Of a DNA stretch of 55,541 nucleotides, positions 24,395 to 49,452 are shown piece after piece (position 1 is the stretch's first letter; every line of letters begins with the position of its first letter). Position numbers and translations under genes: made by a program. The DNA is from Oscillospiraceae bacterium (GTDB taxonomy: Bacteria > Bacillota > Clostridia > Oscillospirales > Oscillospiraceae): the NCBI GenBank assembly GCA_017458085.1, contig JAFTGE010000004.1, forward strand, positions 1-55,541, given 5' to 3'. Below the pieces are notes generated by a model. That model ran no database searches, was not told where the DNA came from, and saw nothing but the letters and a program-made list of their open reading frames with translations.

Positions 24395-24423
24395 TTGACA
24401 TTGCCCTGCCGTGGTGATATTAT
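24395..24423 (+). promoter_or_regulatory. Consensus sigma-A promoter for the transporter/M20D cluster
   Basis: TTGACA (24395-24400), 17-base spacer, TATTAT (24418-24423). It is one of the strongest promoters in the window and leaves a leader of about 65 bases before the start codon at 24496. Confidence 0.85.
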
Positions 24424-24495
24424 GACATGTGTCCATTCCGGGGGTGTAAGGTGAAGCATTCCCCACGGAACGGATAATAGAAAAGGAGGATACAT

Positions 24496-25710
24496 ATGTA
24501 CAATTTCGCACTGGCTTTTGTCATCTGCTGTGTTGCCTACCTGATTGGTGACGCAGTGTCCAACCTGACCAAGGCGTGGGTCCCCTCCGTGTTCGTCACG
24601 GCCGTCGTTCTGCTCATTGGTTACTGGACCGTTATCCCCGCCGATGTGGTTTCGGACTCCAAGCTGATCCCCTTCGGCAGCACCATCGGCATTTACCTGC
24701 TCATCACCCACATGGGTACCATCATCAGCCTCAAGCAGCTGGGTGAGCAGTGGAAGACCATCGTTGTGTGTCTGGCCGGTCTGGCCGGCATGTGCCTGGC
24801 CAGCTGGCTGATCGCCATCCCCATCATCGGCAAGGAATTCGTCGTTGCCGGTCTGCCTCCCCTCACCGGCGGTATCGTCGCTGCTGTCACCATGCAGAGC
24901 GCTGCCCAGGAGAAGGGCCTTGAGGCCGCCGCGCTGTTTGCCATCGCCATGTACTGCGTACAGGGCTTCGCCGGCTACCCCCTCACCGCCGTCTGCCTCC
25001 AGCTCGAAGGCAAGAAGCTGCTGAAGGGCTACCGCGCCAATGGCGGCAAGGTTGACAAGGCTGCCATCGACAAGGCCAACAAGCTCGAAGAGGGCACCGC
25101 TGCCAAGACCGAAAAGAAGAAGCTCATCCCCGAGCTGCCCGCCAAGTGGAACGGCCCCGTCATGATCTTCCTCAAGCTCGGTATCGTTGCGTGGATCGCC
25201 ACCCAGCTCGGCACCATCGCCTTCCCCGGTATCGGCAAGATCTCCGGCGCTGTCTGGGCTCTGGTCCTCGGCGTTATCGGCACCACCATCGGCTTCCTGG
25301 ATGTCAACTCCCTCAACAAGGCCAACTCCTACGGCATCATCATGTTCGCCCTGATGATGTACGTTTTCGACGGTCTGAAGACCGCCACCCCCGCGATGCT
25401 CGGCTCCGTCATCGGCCCCATGATCATTCTCATCATCATCGGTGTCGCTGGCATGGCTATCTTCGAGTTCATCGTTGCCAAGCTGCTTAAGATCGACTAT
25501 GCGCTGGCCCTGGCCAACGGCCTGACCGCCCTCTACGGCTTCCCCCCCAACGCCATCATCACCGAGAACACCTGCAAGGCTCTGGGCGAGAACCAGGACG
25601 AGGTCGATTACCTCATGAGCGAGATGTACCCCAGCATGATCGTCGGCGGCTTCACCACCGTTACGATCACCTCCGTCATCATTGCCGGTCTGTTCACCAA
25701 CCTGCTCTGA
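24496..25710 (+). CDS. Polytopic membrane transporter (GltS/DUF3100-like), probable uptake component of the M20D cluster
   Basis: A 404-residue protein with about ten to eleven hydrophobic helices and a charged cytoplasmic loop (residues about 165-215, rich in Lys/Glu). Two related re-entrant-type segments, PPLTGGIVAAVTMQSAAQEK in the first half and LTALYGFPPNAIITENTCKA in the second, suggest an internally duplicated secondary transporter; I place it only tentatively near the GltS/2-hydroxycarboxylate or DUF3100 group. Codons are strongly biased to AAG, CTG, ATC and GCC, more than in neighbouring genes, suggesting high expression. ATG 24496 follows AAAAGGAGG. It heads a unit with three M20D amidohydrolases and a UPF0597 protein, so an N-acyl amino acid or peptide substrate is plausible (inference). 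Confidence 0.75.
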   Translation: MYNFALAFVICCVAYLIGDAVSNLTKAWVPSVFVTAVVLLIGYWTVIPADVVSDSKLIPFGSTIGIYLLITHMGTIISLKQLGEQWKTIVVCLAGLAGMCLASWLIAIPIIGKEFVVAGLPPLTGGIVAAVTMQSAAQEKGLEAAALFAIAMYCVQGFAGYPLTAVCLQLEGKKLLKGYRANGGKVDKAAIDKANKLEEGTAAKTEKKKLIPELPAKWNGPVMIFLKLGIVAWIATQLGTIAFPGIGKISGAVWALVLGVIGTTIGFLDVNSLNKANSYGIIMFALMMYVFDGLKTATPAMLGSVIGPMIILIIIGVAGMAIFEFIVAKLLKIDYALALANGLTALYGFPPNAIITENTCKALGENQDEVDYLMSEMYPSMIVGGFTTVTITSVIIAGLFTNLL

Positions 25711-25742
25711 TTTTCGGACGAACCGAATACACATGATTTCAA

Positions 25743-25772
25743 GGGGTATTGCGCCTTTCGGCGCAATACCCC
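25743..25772 (+). other. Strong intercistronic hairpin without a T-run
   Basis: GGGGTATTGCGCC and GGCGCAATACCCC pair perfectly (13 bp) around TTTC between the transporter and the first M20D gene. No U-tract follows directly, so partial termination, processing or 3'-end protection is more likely than full termination. Confidence 0.6.
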
Positions 25773-25818
25773 AAGGCCGTCAAAAAGCCTTTTACTTTAG
25801 TCAAAGGAAGTGTACCGC

Positions 25819-26997
25819 TTGAACATTAAGGAAACCGCGCAGAAGTACAGCGATTACGTCGTTGAGATGCGCCGGAAGATCCATATGAATCCGGAGCTGA
25901 GCACCCAGGAGTTTGAAACCAGCAAGCTCGTCTGCGAGGAGCTGGATAAGATCGGCGTATCCTACGAGAGGATCGGTGAGCTTGGGACCGCCGTTCTGGC
26001 CACGATCCGGGGCGCGCTGCCCGGCAAGACCATCCTTGTTCGCGGTGACATGGACGCGCTGCCCGTGGTCGAGGAGGTCGACGTCCCCTTCAAATCGCAG
26101 AAGGAGGGCTGCATGCACGCCTGCGGCCATGACTGCCATACTGCGACTCTGCTGACCGCGGCCCATATCCTCAACGATCTCAAGGACGAGCTGCACGGCA
26201 CGGTGAAGCTGGCCTTCCAGCCCGCCGAGGAGACTGCCCAGGGCGCCAAGGATATGATCGCTGCCGGCGCCATGGAGGGTGTGGACGGCGTCTACGGTAT
26301 GCATGTACAGAGCCCGATCCCCGTTGGTATGGCCTGCGCCGCTCCCGGCGGCCGGATGGCCAGCGCCGGGATGTTCGAGATTTGGGTTCAGGGCAAGGGC
26401 GGCCATGGCGCCGAGCCTGCCAACTGCATCGACGCCATCACCTGCACCACGGCCATTGTCAATTCTTTGCAGACCATCGTCTCCCGTGAGTTCCGTCCGA
26501 TCGACGCCGCGGTTTTGACCGTCGGCCGTATCGACGCGGGCTTCCGCTGGAACGTCATTGCCGACAAAGCCTATATCTCCGGCACGACCCGCTGCTTTGA
26601 CAATGAGATCAACAAGGCCTTCCCCGAGAAGATCGAGCGTATCGTCAAGGGTGTGGCCGAGGCTTACCGCTGCACGGTAGAGTGCAAGTTCACCGATCTG
26701 GTTCCGCCGACGGTGAATCACCCCGTCATGTCCGCGATCGCGGAGAACGCCATCAAGAAGATTTTCGGTGAGGACAGCCTGTATGCCGCAGACCCCACCA
26801 CCGGCGGCGAGGATTTCGCCTATTTCATCAATGCCGCTCCCGATCATCTGGGCGCGATGGCGCTTGTCGGTGTGCGCAATGAGGCCATCGACTGTTGTTA
26901 TGAGCACCACAGCCCCAAGTTCAAGGTCGACGAAGCCGCCCTTTTGAACGCTGCGGCGCTGTATGCCCAGGTCGCTGACGACTTCAACAAGCAGTAA
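25819..26997 (+). CDS. M20D family amidohydrolase (HipO/IAA-amino acid hydrolase type), paralogue 1
   Basis: A 392-residue zinc/manganese aminoacylase-type enzyme. The M20D metal and catalytic motifs are intact: RGDMDALPV, HACGHDCH, the Glu pair in FQPAEETAQGAKDMI, YGMHVQS and a C-terminal HHSPKF. The dimerisation (lid) domain lies in the middle. These enzymes remove acyl groups from N-acyl amino acids or cleave related amides. The start is taken as TTG 25819, eight bases after AAAGGAAG; the GTG at 25810 is inside that site. It begins NIKETAQKYSDYVVEMRRKIH, closely matching paralogue 2 (DIRALAEKYSDYIIERRRYYH) encoded 64 bases downstream. Confidence 0.92.
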   Translation: MNIKETAQKYSDYVVEMRRKIHMNPELSTQEFETSKLVCEELDKIGVSYERIGELGTAVLATIRGALPGKTILVRGDMDALPVVEEVDVPFKSQKEGCMHACGHDCHTATLLTAAHILNDLKDELHGTVKLAFQPAEETAQGAKDMIAAGAMEGVDGVYGMHVQSPIPVGMACAAPGGRMASAGMFEIWVQGKGGHGAEPANCIDAITCTTAIVNSLQTIVSREFRPIDAAVLTVGRIDAGFRWNVIADKAYISGTTRCFDNEINKAFPEKIERIVKGVAEAYRCTVECKFTDLVPPTVNHPVMSAIAENAIKKIFGEDSLYAADPTTGGEDFAYFINAAPDHLGAMALVGVRNEAIDCCYEHHSPKFKVDEAALLNAAALYAQVADDFNKQ

Positions 26998-27061
26998 TCC
27001 AAAACGGGACGGCGTAACAACGGTTATGGCGTCCCTGTTTTCATTTTATAAGGAGGCAATT

Positions 27062-28234
27062 ATGGATATCAGAGCTCTTGCAGAAAAGTATTCCGATTAC
27101 ATCATTGAGCGCAGACGGTACTACCACCAGCACCCGGAGCTGAGCCTCAAGGAGTGGGAGACCACCAAGGCCCTGCTTGAGGATGTCAAGGCCATGGGTC
27201 TTGAGGTACAGACCTTTGACGATTATCCCGGCTTCGTCGCCACGCTGGATACCGGCAAGCCCGGCCGCACCATCATGCTTCGTACCGACATCGACGCCCT
27301 GCCCGTGCAGGAGAAGACCGAACTGCCCTTCGCGTCCGTCAACGACGGCGTCATGCACGCCTGCGGCCACGATAACCATATGGCCATGCTCCTCGGCGCC
27401 ATGAAGATCCTCTGCGAGGTCAAGGATGAGATCCCCGGCGGCAAGGTCAAGTTCATCTTCCAGTCCGCGGAAGAGATCGGCTACGGCTCCCGCTACTATG
27501 TGGAGCACGGTGTGCTCGACGGTGTGGACGCCATCTTCGGCATGCACATCTGGGGCACGCTCGAGGCGCCCTTTGTCAGCGTCGATCCGGGCAACCGCAT
27601 GGCCAGCATGGATAACTTCACCATCAAGGTCAAGGGCTTCCAGTCCCACGGCTCGGCACCCCAGGACGGCCACGACGCCATCGTTGCCGCCTCCGCCATC
27701 GTGCTGGCGCTGCAGACCTTCGTCTCCCGCAAGAATAACCCCATCAACCCCCTGGTCCTCTCCGTCGGCAAGTTCCACGGCGGCGCCATGTACAACATCA
27801 TCTGCCCCGATGTCGAGCTGGTCGGCACCATCCGCACCTACTCCCGTGAGCTGCGCGCCGAGATGGAGAAGGATTTGAACACCATCATCAAGAACACCGC
27901 CGCAGCCCACGACTGCGAGGCCGAGCTGATCTTCAGCCCCATGCTCCCCGCCGTCATCAACGAGGACCCCGAGCTCAACGAGATCGGCCGCGAGGCTGCC
28001 CTCAAGCTCTTTGGACCCGAGGGCGTCAAGGAGTTCCCCGCCCTGATGGGCAGCGAGGACTTCGCTCTGTTCATGGAGAAGATCCCCGGCTTCTTCGCCT
28101 TCCTTGGCACCAAGAACCCGGAGAAGGGTCTGATCTACACCAACCACAACGAGAAGTTCACCTCCGACGAGGATGTGCTCTTCCGCGGCAGCGCGCTAGC
28201 CGCCCAGTTCGCCGTCGATTTCCTGAGCAAGTAA
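27062..28234 (+). CDS. M20D family amidohydrolase, paralogue 2
   Basis: A 390-residue enzyme with intact M20D motifs: RTDIDALPV, HACGHDNH, FQSAEEIGYGSRYY, FGMHIWG and a C-terminal TNHNEKF. Compared with paralogue 1 it has a different lid sequence and differs just after the Glu pair (IGYGSRYYVEHG against TAQGAKDMIAAG), which suggests a different acyl or side-chain preference. ATG 27062 follows TAAGGAGGC. Codon use is very biased and similar to the transporter. It lies between paralogue 1 and the UPF0597 gene, with a GC-rich hairpin (28273-28305) downstream. Confidence 0.92.
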   Translation: MDIRALAEKYSDYIIERRRYYHQHPELSLKEWETTKALLEDVKAMGLEVQTFDDYPGFVATLDTGKPGRTIMLRTDIDALPVQEKTELPFASVNDGVMHACGHDNHMAMLLGAMKILCEVKDEIPGGKVKFIFQSAEEIGYGSRYYVEHGVLDGVDAIFGMHIWGTLEAPFVSVDPGNRMASMDNFTIKVKGFQSHGSAPQDGHDAIVAASAIVLALQTFVSRKNNPINPLVLSVGKFHGGAMYNIICPDVELVGTIRTYSRELRAEMEKDLNTIIKNTAAAHDCEAELIFSPMLPAVINEDPELNEIGREAALKLFGPEGVKEFPALMGSEDFALFMEKIPGFFAFLGTKNPEKGLIYTNHNEKFTSDEDVLFRGSALAAQFAVDFLSK

Positions 28235-28272
28235 AGCATCTTCCAGGCATAAGAGAGAGAAAACCGGAAGCC

Positions 28273-28305
28273 GCCCGCCTGATCGACCGAAACGGTCAGG
28301 CGGGC
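28273..28305 (+). other. GC-rich intercistronic hairpin
   Basis: GCCCGCCTGA and TCAGGCGGGC pair before the UPF0597 gene, with an alternative inner GACCG/CGGTC stem. There is no T-run, so it probably adjusts mRNA stability or read-through within the cluster. Confidence 0.55.
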
Positions 28306-28346
28306 CGGTTCCCGAAGTAAAAATGAAAAAAGAAACGAGGGTTATC

Positions 28347-29621
28347 ATGAACAGAAAGACTTATGATACCTATGTTTCCATACTGAAGGCGGAGCTGACC
28401 ATGGCGACCGGCTGTACCGAGCCGATCGCGATTGCTTACGCAGGCGCAAAGGTGAAAGAGGTACTCGAGGAAGTACCCGATCACTGTACCGTCTATTGCA
28501 GCGGAAACATAGTCAAGAACGTAATGGCCGTGACCGTCCCCAATTCGGGCGGTTCCCGCGGCATCGACACCGCGGCGATGCTCGGCATCGTCGGCGGCGA
28601 CGCCAACGCCACGCTGGATGTGCTCCACGCAATCACGCCGGAGCATATCGACCTGATGAAAAAGCTGATCGCCGAAGGGCGTTGCAGCACCGAGCTGGTG
28701 GAGGGCGTTGCCAACCTTTACATTCGCATTGAGGCTGTGGCCGGTGAAAACACCGCCCTGGTCGAGATCAAAGACTATCACTCCAACATCACGCGGATCG
28801 AGAAAAACGGCGAGGTGCTGTTCGACGCGGCGCAGACCGAGGCCACGGGCGTTGCCGCCCCGGACAAGAGTCTGCTCAACGTCAGGGACATCCTCACCTT
28901 TGCCGATGAGGTCGATCTCGACGACGTGAGGGATGTGCTGGAAAACCAGGTCCGCTGCAATAGCGCCATCGCGGAAGAGGGCCTCAAAAACAACTGGGGC
29001 GCCCAGGTCGGCAAGAGCATCCTCGAGGGTGAGGACGGCTATGGCCTTGTCAACCGCGCCCGCGCCTGGGCCGCCGCCGGCTCCGACGCCCGCATGAACG
29101 GCTGCCCGATGCCCGTGGTCATCAACTCCGGCTCCGGCAACCAGGGCATCACCGTGTCCATGCCGGTGTATGTCTACGCCAAGGAATACGGCGTGGACCA
29201 TGACAAATTCCTGCGCGCACTGGTGGTGTCGAACCTCATCTCCCTGCACCAGAAACGCTATATCGGCAGCCTTTCCGCCTACTGCGGCGCCGTCAGCGCC
29301 GGCACCGGCGCTGCCGCCGGTATCGCCTATATGCTGGGCGAGGGCTACGATGTGATTTGCGGCGTCATCTCCAACAACATCAATATCGACGGCGGCATGG
29401 TCTGCGACGGGGCCAAGTCCTCGTGCGCTGCCAAGATCGCCACGGCGGTCGGCACGGGCCTGCTGAGCCTGGATATGGCGCGTAAGGGCCGCGTCTTCCT
29501 GCCGGGCGAGGGCCTGGTGGAGGACAACATCGAGGACACCATCGCCAGCGTCGGACGTATGGGCCGCGACGGTATGAAGAGCACCGACGTCGAGATCCTG
29601 AAAATCATGCTTGGAAAATAA
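28347..29621 (+). CDS. UPF0597 / L-cysteine desulfidase (CyuA)-type, serine dehydratase alpha-like protein
   Basis: A 424-residue member of the UPF0597 family, related to the alpha chain of iron-sulfur L-serine dehydratase and to cysteine desulfidases that release sulfide, ammonia and pyruvate. Signatures are ELTMATGCTEPIAIAYAG near the start, RMNGCPMPVVINSGSGNQG, SAYCGAVSAGTGAAAG and VCDGAKSSCAAKIATA; the conserved cysteines are the likely Fe-S ligands. ATG 28347 is used because CGAGGG precedes it; an earlier ATG at 28323 has no ribosome site. The position between M20D genes suggests it degrades the amino acid they release. Cysteine is favoured from family knowledge; serine or threonine cannot be excluded. 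Confidence 0.87.
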   Translation: MNRKTYDTYVSILKAELTMATGCTEPIAIAYAGAKVKEVLEEVPDHCTVYCSGNIVKNVMAVTVPNSGGSRGIDTAAMLGIVGGDANATLDVLHAITPEHIDLMKKLIAEGRCSTELVEGVANLYIRIEAVAGENTALVEIKDYHSNITRIEKNGEVLFDAAQTEATGVAAPDKSLLNVRDILTFADEVDLDDVRDVLENQVRCNSAIAEEGLKNNWGAQVGKSILEGEDGYGLVNRARAWAAAGSDARMNGCPMPVVINSGSGNQGITVSMPVYVYAKEYGVDHDKFLRALVVSNLISLHQKRYIGSLSAYCGAVSAGTGAAAGIAYMLGEGYDVICGVISNNINIDGGMVCDGAKSSCAAKIATAVGTGLLSLDMARKGRVFLPGEGLVEDNIEDTIASVGRMGRDGMKSTDVEILKIMLGK

Positions 29622-29650
29622 GCCCCTATCTTTTCCCGGGAGGAATACCA

Positions 29651-30859
29651 ATGTTCAAAGAATTAGCAGAACAGTACTACGAAGAGGCCAAGGCCATCCG
29701 CGAGGATATACACCGCCATCCCGAAATGTCCTATAAAGAGTTCCGCACCGCAGAGCTTGTGGAGAAGAAGCTGAAGGAATACGGCGTCGACTCCATGGAG
29801 CGGATGTTCGACACCGGCGTTGTGGCCCTCATCCACGGCAGCAAGGGCCCCGGCAAATGCATCGCCATCCGCGCGGACATCGACGCCCTGCCTGGCGACG
29901 AGGCCACCGGCGTGGAATTCAGCTCCGAGAACCCCGGCGTCATGCACGCCTGCGGCCATGACATCCACACCGCCAACCTGCTAACCATTGCCCATATGCT
30001 GTGCGAGAACCGCGACAAGTTCCCCGGCACCGTCAAGCTGATCTTCCAGCCCGCCGAGGAAGCCGCCTGCCCCGACAGGCCGCACGCCGGCGCCTGGAAC
30101 ATGGTCCAGTGCGGCTGCATGGAGAACCCCCACGTGGACGCCATGATCGGCCTGCACAACAACCCCGCCGCCAGCGGTCACGGCACCTTCGGCCTGCGCA
30201 AGGGCGTGTGCACTTCGGGCTTTGACCTCTACCGCTTCGACGTGCACGGCAAGACGGCCCACGGCTCCCAGCCCCACACCGGCAACGACGCGATCCTGGC
30301 CATCAGCCAGCTGATCGTCCTGCTGCAGCAGGTGGTCAGCCGCAACATCGATCCGCTCAAGACCGGCATTCTGTCCGTCGGCACGATTCAGGGCGGCACC
30401 GTGGTCAACATCATCCCCGACTACGCCACCGCCGGCGGTTGCTTCCGCTACTATGACAACGGCACGGCCAAGGTCATTCGGGAGCGCACCCTGGCCATCG
30501 CCAGAGGCGTGGAGGAGGTTTCCGGCTGCAAGATCGACGTCACCGCCCATACCGGCTACGCCTGCGTGGAGAATGACGACGCGCTGACCGAGCTTGCCGA
30601 GGCCGCCCTCAAGGAGGAGCTGGGCGAGGACAGCTGCTACTACATGGACGCGCCCGCCACCGGCTCCGAGGACTTCAGTGAGTACCATCTGGTCACCGGC
30701 GTGCCCACCACCTTCATGTGGCTCAACACCCGCCCGATGGAGGGACATGAGGTGATGCCTCTGCACTCGAATAAGTGGTGCCCGGACGCCGATATCATCA
30801 AGTACGGCGCGCCCGGCATGGCCGCCATCGCCGTCAAGTACCTCAACGACAACGCCTGA
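29651..30859 (+). CDS. M20D family amidohydrolase, paralogue 3
   Basis: A 402-residue enzyme more distant from the other two copies. Motifs present are RADIDALPG, HACGHDIH, FQPAEEAACPDRPHAGAWNM, IGLHNNPAASGHGTFG, HGKTAHGSQPHTGNDAI and a C-terminal LHSNKW. The segment after the Glu pair has an insertion with an extra Cys and His (CPDRPH), so the substrate pocket should differ from paralogues 1 and 2. ATG 29651 follows GGGAGGAA. It is the last gene of the cluster and is followed by a strong terminator. Three M20D enzymes in one unit imply several substrates or sequential cuts (inference). Confidence 0.92.
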   Translation: MFKELAEQYYEEAKAIREDIHRHPEMSYKEFRTAELVEKKLKEYGVDSMERMFDTGVVALIHGSKGPGKCIAIRADIDALPGDEATGVEFSSENPGVMHACGHDIHTANLLTIAHMLCENRDKFPGTVKLIFQPAEEAACPDRPHAGAWNMVQCGCMENPHVDAMIGLHNNPAASGHGTFGLRKGVCTSGFDLYRFDVHGKTAHGSQPHTGNDAILAISQLIVLLQQVVSRNIDPLKTGILSVGTIQGGTVVNIIPDYATAGGCFRYYDNGTAKVIRERTLAIARGVEEVSGCKIDVTAHTGYACVENDDALTELAEAALKEELGEDSCYYMDAPATGSEDFSEYHLVTGVPTTFMWLNTRPMEGHEVMPLHSNKWCPDADIIKYGAPGMAAIAVKYLNDNA

Positions 30860-30873
30860 TACGATGCCTGAAC

Positions 30874-30907
30874 AAAAAAACGGACTGCGAAAGCAGTCCG
30901 TTTTTTG
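30874..30907. terminator. Bidirectional terminator after the M20D cluster
   Basis: AAAAAACGGACTGC and GCAGTCCGTTTTTT pair perfectly around GAAA, between convergent genes. Confidence 0.9.
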
Positions 30908-46872: not shown

Positions 46873-47754
46873 CTATTGTTTGCCCTGCTCCGTCACGTAC
46901 CGCACAACGTAGTCGACAAAGCGGCGGGTGGCGGGCCCGGCCTTGTCCCCGGCGGCGATGGCGATGCCGATGGTGCGTTTGGCCTCCGGCACCAGCGGCA
47001 GCACCTGCAATTCATCGTGGCGTCCCTTCAAGAGCAGCTCCGGCATAATGCTGATGCCGAGTCCCTGCTCCACCATAGCGATGACGGCGTAATCGTCCTT
47101 GGTGTAAAAGCGCACGTTGGGCTTGACCCCGGCTGCCTCCAGCGCGCGCCGCGCGTCGTGGTCGGAGCTTTGCAGCAGGCTGATAAAAGGCTCCGTCTCG
47201 CACTCGACCAGCGGGAAGCGCGGATAGCTTTCAAAGCGGCTGTGTTTCGGCAGGATCGCCAGCAGCCGGTCCTCCATCAGCGCGATGCACTCGCAGTCCA
47301 CCGCCGAGGGCAGCGCCACAAAGCCCACGTCTACGCTGCCGTCGCTCAGCCACTGCTCCACATCGTGGTAGTCGCCGTTTAAAAGCTTGAAATCCACCTT
47401 GGGATAATCCCGCTGGAATTCCTTGAGCACCGGCGGCAGCCAGTGCACGGCGACGGAGGTAAAGGCCCCGATCCGCACCGTGCCGGACTCCAGCCCTCGG
47501 ATGGAGGACGCCGTCTGGCTCAGCTGCTCGGCGCTCGAGAGGAGATTGCGCACCGCAGGCAGCAGCCGCTCCCCCTCACCGGTCAGGTGCACACCGGCCC
47601 GGCTGCGCTTTAAGACGGCAAAGCCCAGCTCCTTTTCCAGGCTGTCGATGCTGTGGCTGACGGCGGACTGGGTGCAGCCCAACTGCGCCGCCGCGCGGGT
47701 CAGGCTCCCCGTTTCCACCACGGTCATCAGCGTGCGGTATTTTTCCAGGATCAT
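46873..47754 (-). CDS. LysR-family transcriptional regulator
   Basis: A 293-residue LTTR. The N-terminal winged HTH is LMTVVETGSLTRAAAQLGCTQSAVSHSIDSLE; the remaining residues form the effector-binding domain starting at GTVRIGAFTSVAVHWLPPVL. The ligand is not deducible. ATG 47754 follows AAGGAGG. It is divergent from a sodium/proline-type symporter, the classic layout for a regulator of the facing gene, and the intergenic region holds a 15-base dyad ATGAA-N5-TTCAT (47769-47783) that fits a LysR site. Confidence 0.93.
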   Translation of the reverse strand: MILEKYRTLMTVVETGSLTRAAAQLGCTQSAVSHSIDSLEKELGFAVLKRSRAGVHLTGEGERLLPAVRNLLSSAEQLSQTASSIRGLESGTVRIGAFTSVAVHWLPPVLKEFQRDYPKVDFKLLNGDYHDVEQWLSDGSVDVGFVALPSAVDCECIALMEDRLLAILPKHSRFESYPRFPLVECETEPFISLLQSSDHDARRALEAAGVKPNVRFYTKDDYAVIAMVEQGLGISIMPELLLKGRHDELQVLPLVPEAKRTIGIAIAAGDKAGPATRRFVDYVVRYVTEQGKQ

Positions 47755-47768
47755 GGCAGCCTCCTTAT

Positions 47769-47783
47769 ATGAATTATTTTCAT
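47769..47783. promoter_or_regulatory. Candidate LysR-type operator
   Basis: ATGAA-N5-TTCAT dyad, 15 bases before the LysR start codon and about 100 bases from the symporter promoter, a position typical of autoregulatory LTTR sites. Confidence 0.45.
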
Positions 47784-47863
47784 TTTAACATGAACAAGAT
47801 TATGTTTGATACTATTATAGAAAAAATTCTCCGTTTTTCAAGCGGTTTTTTTGATCTTCCGCA

Positions 47864-47892
47864 TTGCGCGGGCGCGCCGCCGCCCGTATAAT
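47864..47892 (+). promoter_or_regulatory. Sigma-A promoter for the sodium symporter
   Basis: TTGCGC (47864-47869), 17-base GC-rich spacer, TATAAT (47887-47892), about 33 bases before the start codon. Confidence 0.7.
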
Positions 47893-47925
47893 GCATGGCA
47901 TCGGGAAAAGAAAGGAATCTTCACC

Positions 47926-49452
47926 ATGAGCGCTTCCATGATTTGTATTTTGATCGCCGTCATCGTGTATCTGGTCGGTATGCTGTTGATCGGCTTCAAG
48001 TATGCCGACAATCAGACCTCTGAGGATTTCTACCTCGGCGGGCGCAAGCTCGGCCCCATCGTCACCGCCATGAGCACCGAGGCCTCCGACATGAGCGCCT
48101 ATCTGCTGATGGGCGTGCCGGGCCTGGCCTTCTTCTGCGGCGTGGCGGAGGCCGGCTGGACCGCCATCGGTCTGGCCGCGGGTACTTACCTCAACTGGCT
48201 GATCGTGGCCCGGCGTCTGCGCCGCTACTCGGCAAAGACCCATTCCATCACCGTGCCGGACTTCCTGGCTGCCCGCTTCCGGGATAACACCAAGCTCATT
48301 GAGATCCTCGGCGCGCTGACCATCATCGTCTTCTTCGTGCCCTACACCGCCTCGGGCTTCGCCGCCTGCGGCAAGCTGTTCAACAGTCTTTTCGGCTTTG
48401 ACTACATGACCGCCATGATCATCTCCGCCGCGGTCATCGTGGCCTACTGCGCGCTGGGCGGCTTCATGGCGGCCTCGGTTACGAGCCTGATCCAGTCGAT
48501 CGTCATGACCTTTGCGCTGATCGTGGTGCTCTTTTTCGGCATCAACGCCGCCGGCGGCTGGGACGCGGTCGTCTCGAATGCCCGCTCGATCCCCGGCTAC
48601 CTGAGCTTTGCCGCCAGCACCGACATTACCCAATCCGCCGCCGGTGCGTATACGCCCATCATGGTCGTCTCCACCCTGGCCTGGGGCCTTGGCTACTTCG
48701 GTATGCCCCACATCCTGACACACTTCATGGCCGTCGAGGACGAGGAAAAGCTCACCGTCTCCCGCCGGGTCGGGTCGGTCTGGTGCGTGGTATCCCTGGC
48801 CGTCGCGGTGGTCATCGGCATTGTGGGCTTTGCCATGGCGAAGGCCGGCGCGCTGACCATGCCCAGCACCGAGTCCGAGGCTGAGAACATGATCGTCAAC
48901 GTCTCGCGCGTGATTGCCCAGGCCGGTATCCTCCCGGCCATTGTCGCCGGTATCATCATCGCCGGTATTCTCGCGGCCACCATGTCCACCGCCGACGCGC
49001 AGCTGCTGGGCGCCGCCTCCGGTGTGACGCACAACCTGTTAAACGATGTGTTCGGCATCAAGCTCTCCGATAAAAAGACCATGCTCATTGCCCGCCTGAC
49101 GGTCGTCGCCGTGGCGATCCTCGGCGTCATCTTCGCCTCCGATCCCAGCAGCTCCATCTTCCGCGTGGTGTCCTTCGCCTGGGCCGGCTTCGGCGCGACC
49201 TTCGGCCCGGTGATGCTCTTCGCTCTGTTCTGGAAGCGCTGCAACAAGTACGGCGCCATCGCCGGTATGTTCTCCGGCATGGTGATGATCTTCGTCTGGA
49301 AGTACCTGATCGCTCCCATCGGCGGCGTCTTCGCCATCTATGAGCTGCTGCCTGCTTTTGTGGTATCGAGCATCCTGATCGTGGTGGTCTCCCTCTGCAC
49401 CGCCGCGCCGGACGCGGAAATCGTCGCAGAGTTTGAAAATGTGGGAAAATAA
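47926..49452 (+). CDS. putP: Sodium:solute symporter, PutP (sodium/proline) type
   Basis: A 508-residue SSS-family transporter with about 13 hydrophobic helices. Typical sites are SEDFYLGGRKLGPIVTAMSTEASDMSAYLLMGVPG near the N-terminus (written in shorter pieces: YLGGRKLGPIV, STEASDMSAYLLMG), YCALGGFMAASVTSLIQ and GILAATMSTADAQLLGAAS. The Ser-rich helix near residue 55 and the STADAQLL segment are the sodium and substrate regions of PutP. Proline is the most likely substrate, though other amino acids cannot be excluded. ATG 47926 follows AAAGGAA. It faces a LysR regulator and has its own promoter and terminator. Confidence 0.92.
   Translation: MSASMICILIAVIVYLVGMLLIGFKYADNQTSEDFYLGGRKLGPIVTAMSTEASDMSAYLLMGVPGLAFFCGVAEAGWTAIGLAAGTYLNWLIVARRLRRYSAKTHSITVPDFLAARFRDNTKLIEILGALTIIVFFVPYTASGFAACGKLFNSLFGFDYMTAMIISAAVIVAYCALGGFMAASVTSLIQSIVMTFALIVVLFFGINAAGGWDAVVSNARSIPGYLSFAASTDITQSAAGAYTPIMVVSTLAWGLGYFGMPHILTHFMAVEDEEKLTVSRRVGSVWCVVSLAVAVVIGIVGFAMAKAGALTMPSTESEAENMIVNVSRVIAQAGILPAIVAGIIIAGILAATMSTADAQLLGAASGVTHNLLNDVFGIKLSDKKTMLIARLTVVAVAILGVIFASDPSSSIFRVVSFAWAGFGATFGPVMLFALFWKRCNKYGAIAGMFSGMVMIFVWKYLIAPIGGVFAIYELLPAFVVSSILIVVVSLCTAAPDAEIVAEFENVGK

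Follow-up and report, generated by a model that had tools for sequence, protein, structure and literature searches.

In the AbgT-AbgAB system, p-aminobenzoyl-glutamate is imported and then cleaved by an M20D enzyme; this system is not known to include a desulfidase. The cyuPA operon of Escherichia coli, as described in PMC9040844, encodes a cysteine importer and the desulfidase CyuA and serves anaerobic cysteine use. ScmP, YhaA, and YtnL of Bacillus subtilis are M20 N-acetylcysteine deacetylases, according to PMC12757645, and PMC10821248 presents a Pseudomonas pathway from 2-aminothiazoline-4-carboxylate (ATC) to cysteine in which ATC hydrolase opens the blocked cysteine. Here, we describe an operon in a 55,541-nucleotide stretch of the genome of a gut Oscillospiraceae bacterium (contig JAFTGE010000004.1; the whole stretch is called the window) that encodes, in order and on the plus strand, a putative membrane carrier (T), two M20D amidohydrolases (M1 and M2), a predicted L-cysteine desulfidase (S), and a further M20D amidohydrolase (M3).

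The five genes form one conserved operon, a conclusion held with high confidence. The preferred reading, to which we give slightly less than an even chance, is that the operon scavenges and ferments N-blocked cysteine. Cysteine with a masked amino group (N-acyl-cysteine or a cysteinyl dipeptide) would be imported by T, acting as a secondary carrier of the ESS/GltS type. In the cytosol, M1, M2, and M3, whose loops next to the catalytic site differ, would cut the amide bond to free cysteine, and S, with a [4Fe-4S] cluster, would convert this cysteine to pyruvate, ammonia, and sulfide, keeping toxic free cysteine low. Confidence is moderate for the import of a blocked amino acid and about even for cysteine as the main substrate of the operon; we infer the blocked cysteine, its blocking group, and the direction of transport.

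Predicted functions of the five proteins

S (positions 28347 to 29621; listed as an open reading frame from 28323, with congeners suggesting the ATG at 28347) matches SDH_alpha (PF03313) with 214 bits and the L-cysteine desulfidase structures of a methanogen (PDB 9he0 and 9fsl) with E values of 6e-19 and 2e-18. It is 36% identical to E. coli CyuA over 428 amino acids. Cys23 and Glu25 of the GCTE motif of MmCyuA are given in PMC12647591 as essential and as not conserved in the serine dehydratases SdaA/B. Both residues are present in S (numbered from 28347) and invariant in 67 of 67 aligned rows, as are the cluster cysteines Cys313, Cys353, and Cys360 and the near-cluster residues Arg249, Asn265, and Lys363, whose MmCyuA counterparts were taken from the same text. 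All eight CyuA residues checked are thus kept, and S is predicted with high confidence to be an L-cysteine desulfidase. An earlier sequence-only reading of the window had linked S to cysteine desulfidation, and this assignment holds; the name that it used, UPF0597, was returned by no search, and S came back as SDH_alpha and L-cysteine desulfidase.

M1 (25819 to 26997), M2 (27062 to 28234), and M3 (29651 to 30859) pass the TIGR01891 cutoff of 153.75 bits widely (377.6, 356.9, and 323.8 bits, respectively). M1 is listed as an open reading frame from a GTG at 25810, and congeners suggest the TTG at 25819 as its start. All three contain the M20D motifs HACGHDxH, EE, and GxH and a C-terminal H, which serve metal binding and catalysis. 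The equivalog cutoff of 500 bits for carboxypeptidase CpsA (NF040868) was not reached by M1, M2, or M3 (394.5, 366.1, and 304.3 bits). A tree of 78 M20D proteins assigns each of the three to a supported group of its own, with 11 rows for M1, 8 for M2, and 9 for M3, and in other families T has members of each of these groups nearby; the operon therefore does not stem from a simple recent triplication. The loops beside the catalytic site also differ among M1, M2, and M3, so that the different pockets proposed by the sequence-only reading are borne out at the level of lineages and loops. Its description of M3 as the divergent enzyme agrees with the tree but is less clear from pairwise identity (39% for M1-M3 over 347 positions, 38% for M1-M2, and 33% for M2-M3). 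Identities to B. subtilis ScmP (PDB 1ysj) are 38.6% for M1, 39.7% for M2, and 36.2% for M3. Mercapturates as intact M20D substrates are less likely: activity of ScmP, which is no orthologue of these enzymes, on N-acetyl-S-(2-succino)cysteine was not detected according to PMC12757645.

T (24496 to 25710) is a 404-amino-acid membrane protein, as judged by hydropathy. It matches no model in Pfam (none up to an E value of 10) or NCBIfam and returns nothing below an E value of 0.35 from PHROGs or below 0.13 from a profile search against sequences of solved structures. When 55 members of its family were compared with Pfam and NCBIfam, isolated weak matches only were found, and PF03616 (GltS/ESS) was matched by none of the 55 at an E value of 0.01. 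HHalign aligned the 55-member profile to five GltS sequences with a probability of 94.7% over 323 columns (96.9% in global mode), whereas the symporter families SSF and SDF reached 0.5% and 0.2%, respectively. T is most likely a distant ESS/GltS-like secondary carrier, because this profile match extends over most of its length and is not found with SSF or SDF. The two halves of T align to each other at 77%, a weak sign of a two-repeat build.

DUF819 (PF05684) was considered as the family of T and rejected, with none of the 55 members matching at an E value of 0.01 and an HHalign probability of 61% over 101 columns (32.4% in global mode). An Enterococcus faecalis member is labeled DUF819 in its record, and members in 12 plasmid records are annotated as "hypothetical protein" or "DUF819 family protein" or carry no annotation. 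The T family is widespread and has no model in the databases searched. E. coli genomes contain no DNA resembling the Klebsiella T locus at the sensitivity used. The genome of the window also encodes a remote T paralogue (L025:7285-8739, on G000:C119; 31% and 27% identity in two pieces), which lies within a 485-amino-acid frame and adjoins a calcineurin-like phosphoesterase gene.

Conservation and neighborhoods of T and S

Among 102 genomes of the genus searched, including that of the window, T is found in 17 and a close T in 13, again counting the window; these close T proteins are 67 to 85% identical to the window T, one of them being cut by a contig end. The full order T-M1-M2-S-M3 is present in four of the 13: the window, G221 (L136), G229 (L137), and G551 (L259). 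The five proteins of the window are 65 to 84% identical to those of two of the other three S-bearing operons, and T is 85% identical to that of the third. The sequence-only reading had made its case depend on conservation of the gene set in relatives, which the three congeners among these four genomes provide. In the remaining nine congeners, S is not beside T or a contig edge is reached: G569 has T-M1 and part of M2 before its contig ends, G599 has M3 and a partial T, G213 has T and three M20D genes up to the contig end, G232 has a LysR gene, T, and M2 near a contig end, and the other five are considered below.

A SleB-like gene and an isochorismatase-like gene flank the operon in both G229 and the window, and the G229 copy therefore looks inherited in place. 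Elsewhere in the window (46873 to 49452), a LysR gene on the minus strand stands divergent to an SSF symporter gene on the plus strand, 89% and 84% identical to a pair that in G229 is located a short way upstream of the operon. The pair is arranged likewise in G551, and in both genomes one SleB-like gene lies between the pair and the operon. The LysR protein and the symporter, 16 kb from the operon in the window, may be its regulator and a second carrier.

The neighborhood of T was assessed in 80 named loci, which belong to Bacillota, Synergistota, Pseudomonadota, and Thermodesulfobacteriota. A single peptide pattern had retrieved 110 confirmed relatives, of which these are the best 80. T has an M20 gene no more than 3 kb away in 58 of the 80, a count that includes near-duplicates without thinning (two Lacrimispora amygdalina, five Listeria, and two Tetragenococcus loci), compared with 7 of 112 control places within these loci. 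Within the same distance are an ATC-hydrolase-like gene (six loci), a gamma-glutamyltransferase (GGT) gene (five), a PF01979-type amidohydrolase gene (three), or no labeled enzyme (eight), partner families being named through representatives. Partner labels cluster on the T tree, with 36 changes versus a shuffled mean of 63.8 (107 rows). Eight GGT loci stand together with weak support, and six ATC-hydrolase loci form a supported clade with one unlabeled locus; this tree is of a quick kind and carries a warning of long branches meeting, including at the GGT clade (fork support of 87, drawn open). Rows dropped from it were L028, L029, and L088, judged to be copies or near-copies of others, L207 and L211, and three loci with no open T frame of >360 amino acids (L026, L062, and L096). 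Five GGTs adjoining T (L021, L100, L102, L103, and L105) have, by eye, an N terminus without a hydrophobic leader and for this reason look cytosolic, which fits unblocking after import. To judge from these enzyme families, the shared theme of T partners is an amino acid with a masked amino group.

Five Listeria species (L084, L085, L087, L091, and L104) have T between a YitT-family gene and a pyridoxal phosphate-dependent decarboxylase-like gene, a partner set unlike that of other T loci, with an M20-like gene one step beyond in four of the five. The M20D proteins encoded beside T in G079 (L016) and in the record of L029 are identical despite different isolate names, perhaps through transfer or mixed bins.

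S is common on its own, being found in 65 of 291 genomes of the class and 80 of 200 of the family. In addition to the four T-M20D operons, it lies near T with other partners. In two Lacrimispora amygdalina assemblies (L066 and L070), T, an ATC-hydrolase-like gene, and S stand in one row on the same strand; the protein with the ATC hydrolase family name is a member of PF14196, and L. amygdalina is a possible model organism for the blocked-cysteine idea. Sedimentibacter saalensis (L071) has S divergent to T and an ATC-hydrolase-like gene, at 2.4 kb from T and with a sigma-54-activator-like gene between. G150 (L021) combines GGT, T, and S, and in G310 (L214), S adjoins a T gene cut by the contig end.

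On the S tree, T-associated S proteins occupy at least four places, and the window clade and Lacrimispora are possibly near each other (the fork uniting them has 94/85 and is not starred). The S proteins of the four operons make up a supported clade, which joins the S of G118 and G128 and not the S that is usual in the genus. The S gene of G118 (L217) is the last of an NRAMP-SDR-M20D-nitroreductase-S cluster that lacks T. Another, distant S in G207 has an amidohydrolase, an M20D, and an SSF symporter gene nearby; the M20D proteins of G118 and G207 group together in the M20D tree.

Because a desulfidase lies near other unblocking enzymes, GGT and ATC-hydrolase-like proteins, in other T clades, import of blocked cysteine is the simplest reading of the operon. 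A wider proposal, offered tentatively and clearly short of an even chance, is that T stands for an unrecognized and widespread family whose members are secondary carriers of amino acids in blocked form; in at least four lineages, blocked cysteine would be coupled to a desulfidase, giving a hidden gut route to sulfide that starts from conjugated or peptide-bound cysteine and bypasses free cysteine and its known importers. As part of the same tentative proposal, the neighboring enzyme would tell the blocking group: N-acyl or peptide for M20, gamma-glutamyl for GGT, thiazoline for ATC-hydrolase-like proteins, and other peptides for the amidohydrolase.

Several observations weigh against N-blocked cysteine as the substrate of the operon. 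The usual form in the loci seen is T with M20D and without S. Within the genus, G215, G598, G600, G202, and G597 have M3-T-M1 and no visible S, the contig of G598 stopping just past M1 and that of G202 starting at M3. Among 57 S loci with flanks of up to 1.5 kb, an M20D gene stands beside S in only two, which are of the operon type. S occurs in 3 of the 80 named T loci, and in these three no M20D gene lies within 3 kb of T. Of 19 other family- or class-level genomes with both genes (coordinates read by eye), 17 showed S only away from T, including three (G375, G388, and G522) with S on the same contig as T and 23 to 41 kb off. None of M1, M2, and M3 groups specifically with ScmP, which stands alone on a long branch of the M20D tree (YhaA and YtnL were left out). 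Finally, the direction of transport is assumed from the likeness of T to GltS.

The usual lack of S favors the main rival, a general scavenging operon for a wide range of N-acylated amino acids or dipeptides. In this case, S would have joined solely for the removal of cysteine, or for relief from its toxicity, among many products; we regard this as possible and somewhat doubtful. Mixed substrates are suggested by the presence of three M20D lineages, and the genome of the window encodes three further M20D proteins above the TIGR01891 cutoff outside the operon. However, separate T clades have S together with unblocking enzymes of other kinds, and the active-site loop of M3 is changed in S-bearing operons: M3 of all four has a five-residue insertion directly after the catalytic Glu pair, which is missing in 12 of 12 M3 proteins from operons without visible S (three of the contigs, in G598, G202, and G599, end beside or within the operon). 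The S operons form one clade, and this association therefore counts as one evolutionary event and is only suggestive. S appears to have been added, in one clade, to an operon that is older and serves N-blocked amino acids. The sequence-only reading, which proposed import of an N-acylated, conjugated, or peptide-bound sulfur amino acid, is partly supported: import of a blocked cysteine stands as the simplest reading, but the five-gene set that it took as the unit is not general.

Less probable explanations concern S and T individually. Deamination of serine or another small amino acid released by the M20D enzymes is very unlikely: PF03313 also covers serine dehydratases, but S has the GCTE Cys and Glu that SdaA/B do not conserve (PMC12647591). 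Its 36% identity to CyuA, moreover, extends over the full length. Export by T, with the operon detoxifying a conjugate made inside the cell, would suit a carrier whose direction is an assumption, but GltS-type carriers are known as importers, and Pfam identifies no acyltransferase among the five genes (T being without a match); we consider export highly improbable. Little weight, and no more than for export, is given to S as a hitchhiker in a neutral place: S is seen in the operon in only one clade of the genus, but the tight gene order is kept in four genomes, and S recurs near T elsewhere.

Transcription signals and codon usage

A sigma-70-type promoter, TTGACA-17-TATTAT (24395 to 24423), precedes T, with 11 of 12 consensus bases and a TG before the -10 element. 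Two congeners with diverged flanks, L136 and L137, keep it as TTGACA-17-TATCAT and TTGACA-17-TATGAT, and a chance match is therefore unlikely. The ribosome binding site of T, AAGGAGG (24483 to 24489), was read in the sequence and is likewise kept in both. Folding places an intrinsic terminator, a hairpin ending in T's, at the end of the operon (30875 to 30906); it was not listed by the program scan, and L136 and L137 also have a terminator after M3, but one of different sequence. The promoter, the five same-strand genes, and the closing terminator of the sequence-only reading are thus all found where it had placed them.

Folding also reveals two hairpins within the operon. A 13-bp hairpin lies in the T-M1 spacer (25743 to 25772), with a T-run not directly following; its stem is identical in G221 (L136) despite a different surrounding spacer, and the 32-base T-M1 spacer of G229 (L137) is without it. 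This hairpin could protect the T message or damp downstream transcription. A GC-rich hairpin occupies the M2-S spacer (28265 to 28314).

Strong expression and sharper codon bias than the neighbors, also proposed from the sequence alone, fit three of the five genes. The codon adaptation index, referenced to 24 genes from the ribosomal region of the same genome (mean of 0.689), is at the ribosomal level for T (0.746), M2 (0.749), and M3 (0.716). M1 (0.593) and S (0.578) are only slightly above 38 other window genes, whose mean of 0.528 may lean high, as these were picked by a script using the index itself (floor of 0.3) and may include a few wrong frames.

Relation to described systems

No paper with this gene set was found among the matches listed in the open-access literature, as searched by titles and starts of abstracts. 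Import plus desulfidation is already known as an idea, as are the enzyme families, but in the literature searched neither their combination nor the T family appears to have been described. If the preferred reading is true, a masked-cysteine carrier with unmasking and degrading enzymes would be another entry route for cysteine and a possible added source of gut sulfide. It would also give a testable substrate guess for a family whose members, in the 12 plasmid records, are annotated as hypothetical, as DUF819, or not at all.

The operon resembles AbgT-AbgAB in pairing a carrier with M20D enzymes, an amide conjugate being imported and then cut inside the cell, but T matches no Pfam model and the operon has a desulfidase. 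It shares with GltS/ESS (PF03616) the profile similarity of T to five GltS sequences over most of its length; unlike GltS, T is matched by PF03616 in none of 55 members at an E value of 0.01 and has hydrolases of blocked amino acids as partners.

As in the scm, yha, and ytn clusters of B. subtilis (PMC12757645), M20 deacylases would free cysteine from an N-acyl form. In the window operon, however, the product would pass to a desulfidase, the M20D proteins show no specific tree grouping with ScmP, and the acetyltransferase, monooxygenase, and lyase of the scm/yxe S-alkylcysteine pathway are not among the five genes by Pfam (T being without a match). The Pseudomonas ATC pathway (PMC10821248) has a possible counterpart in Lacrimispora, where a PF14196 family protein sits with T and S and ATC use is putative; unlike that pathway, the window is without ATC hydrolase. 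With cyuPA (PMC9040844), the operon shares an importer and a cysteine desulfidase, S being 36% identical to CyuA. It differs in that T matches no Pfam or NCBIfam family, leaving nothing in these models to place it with CyuP, and in that three amide hydrolases accompany import and desulfidation; the imported molecule is therefore probably not free cysteine.

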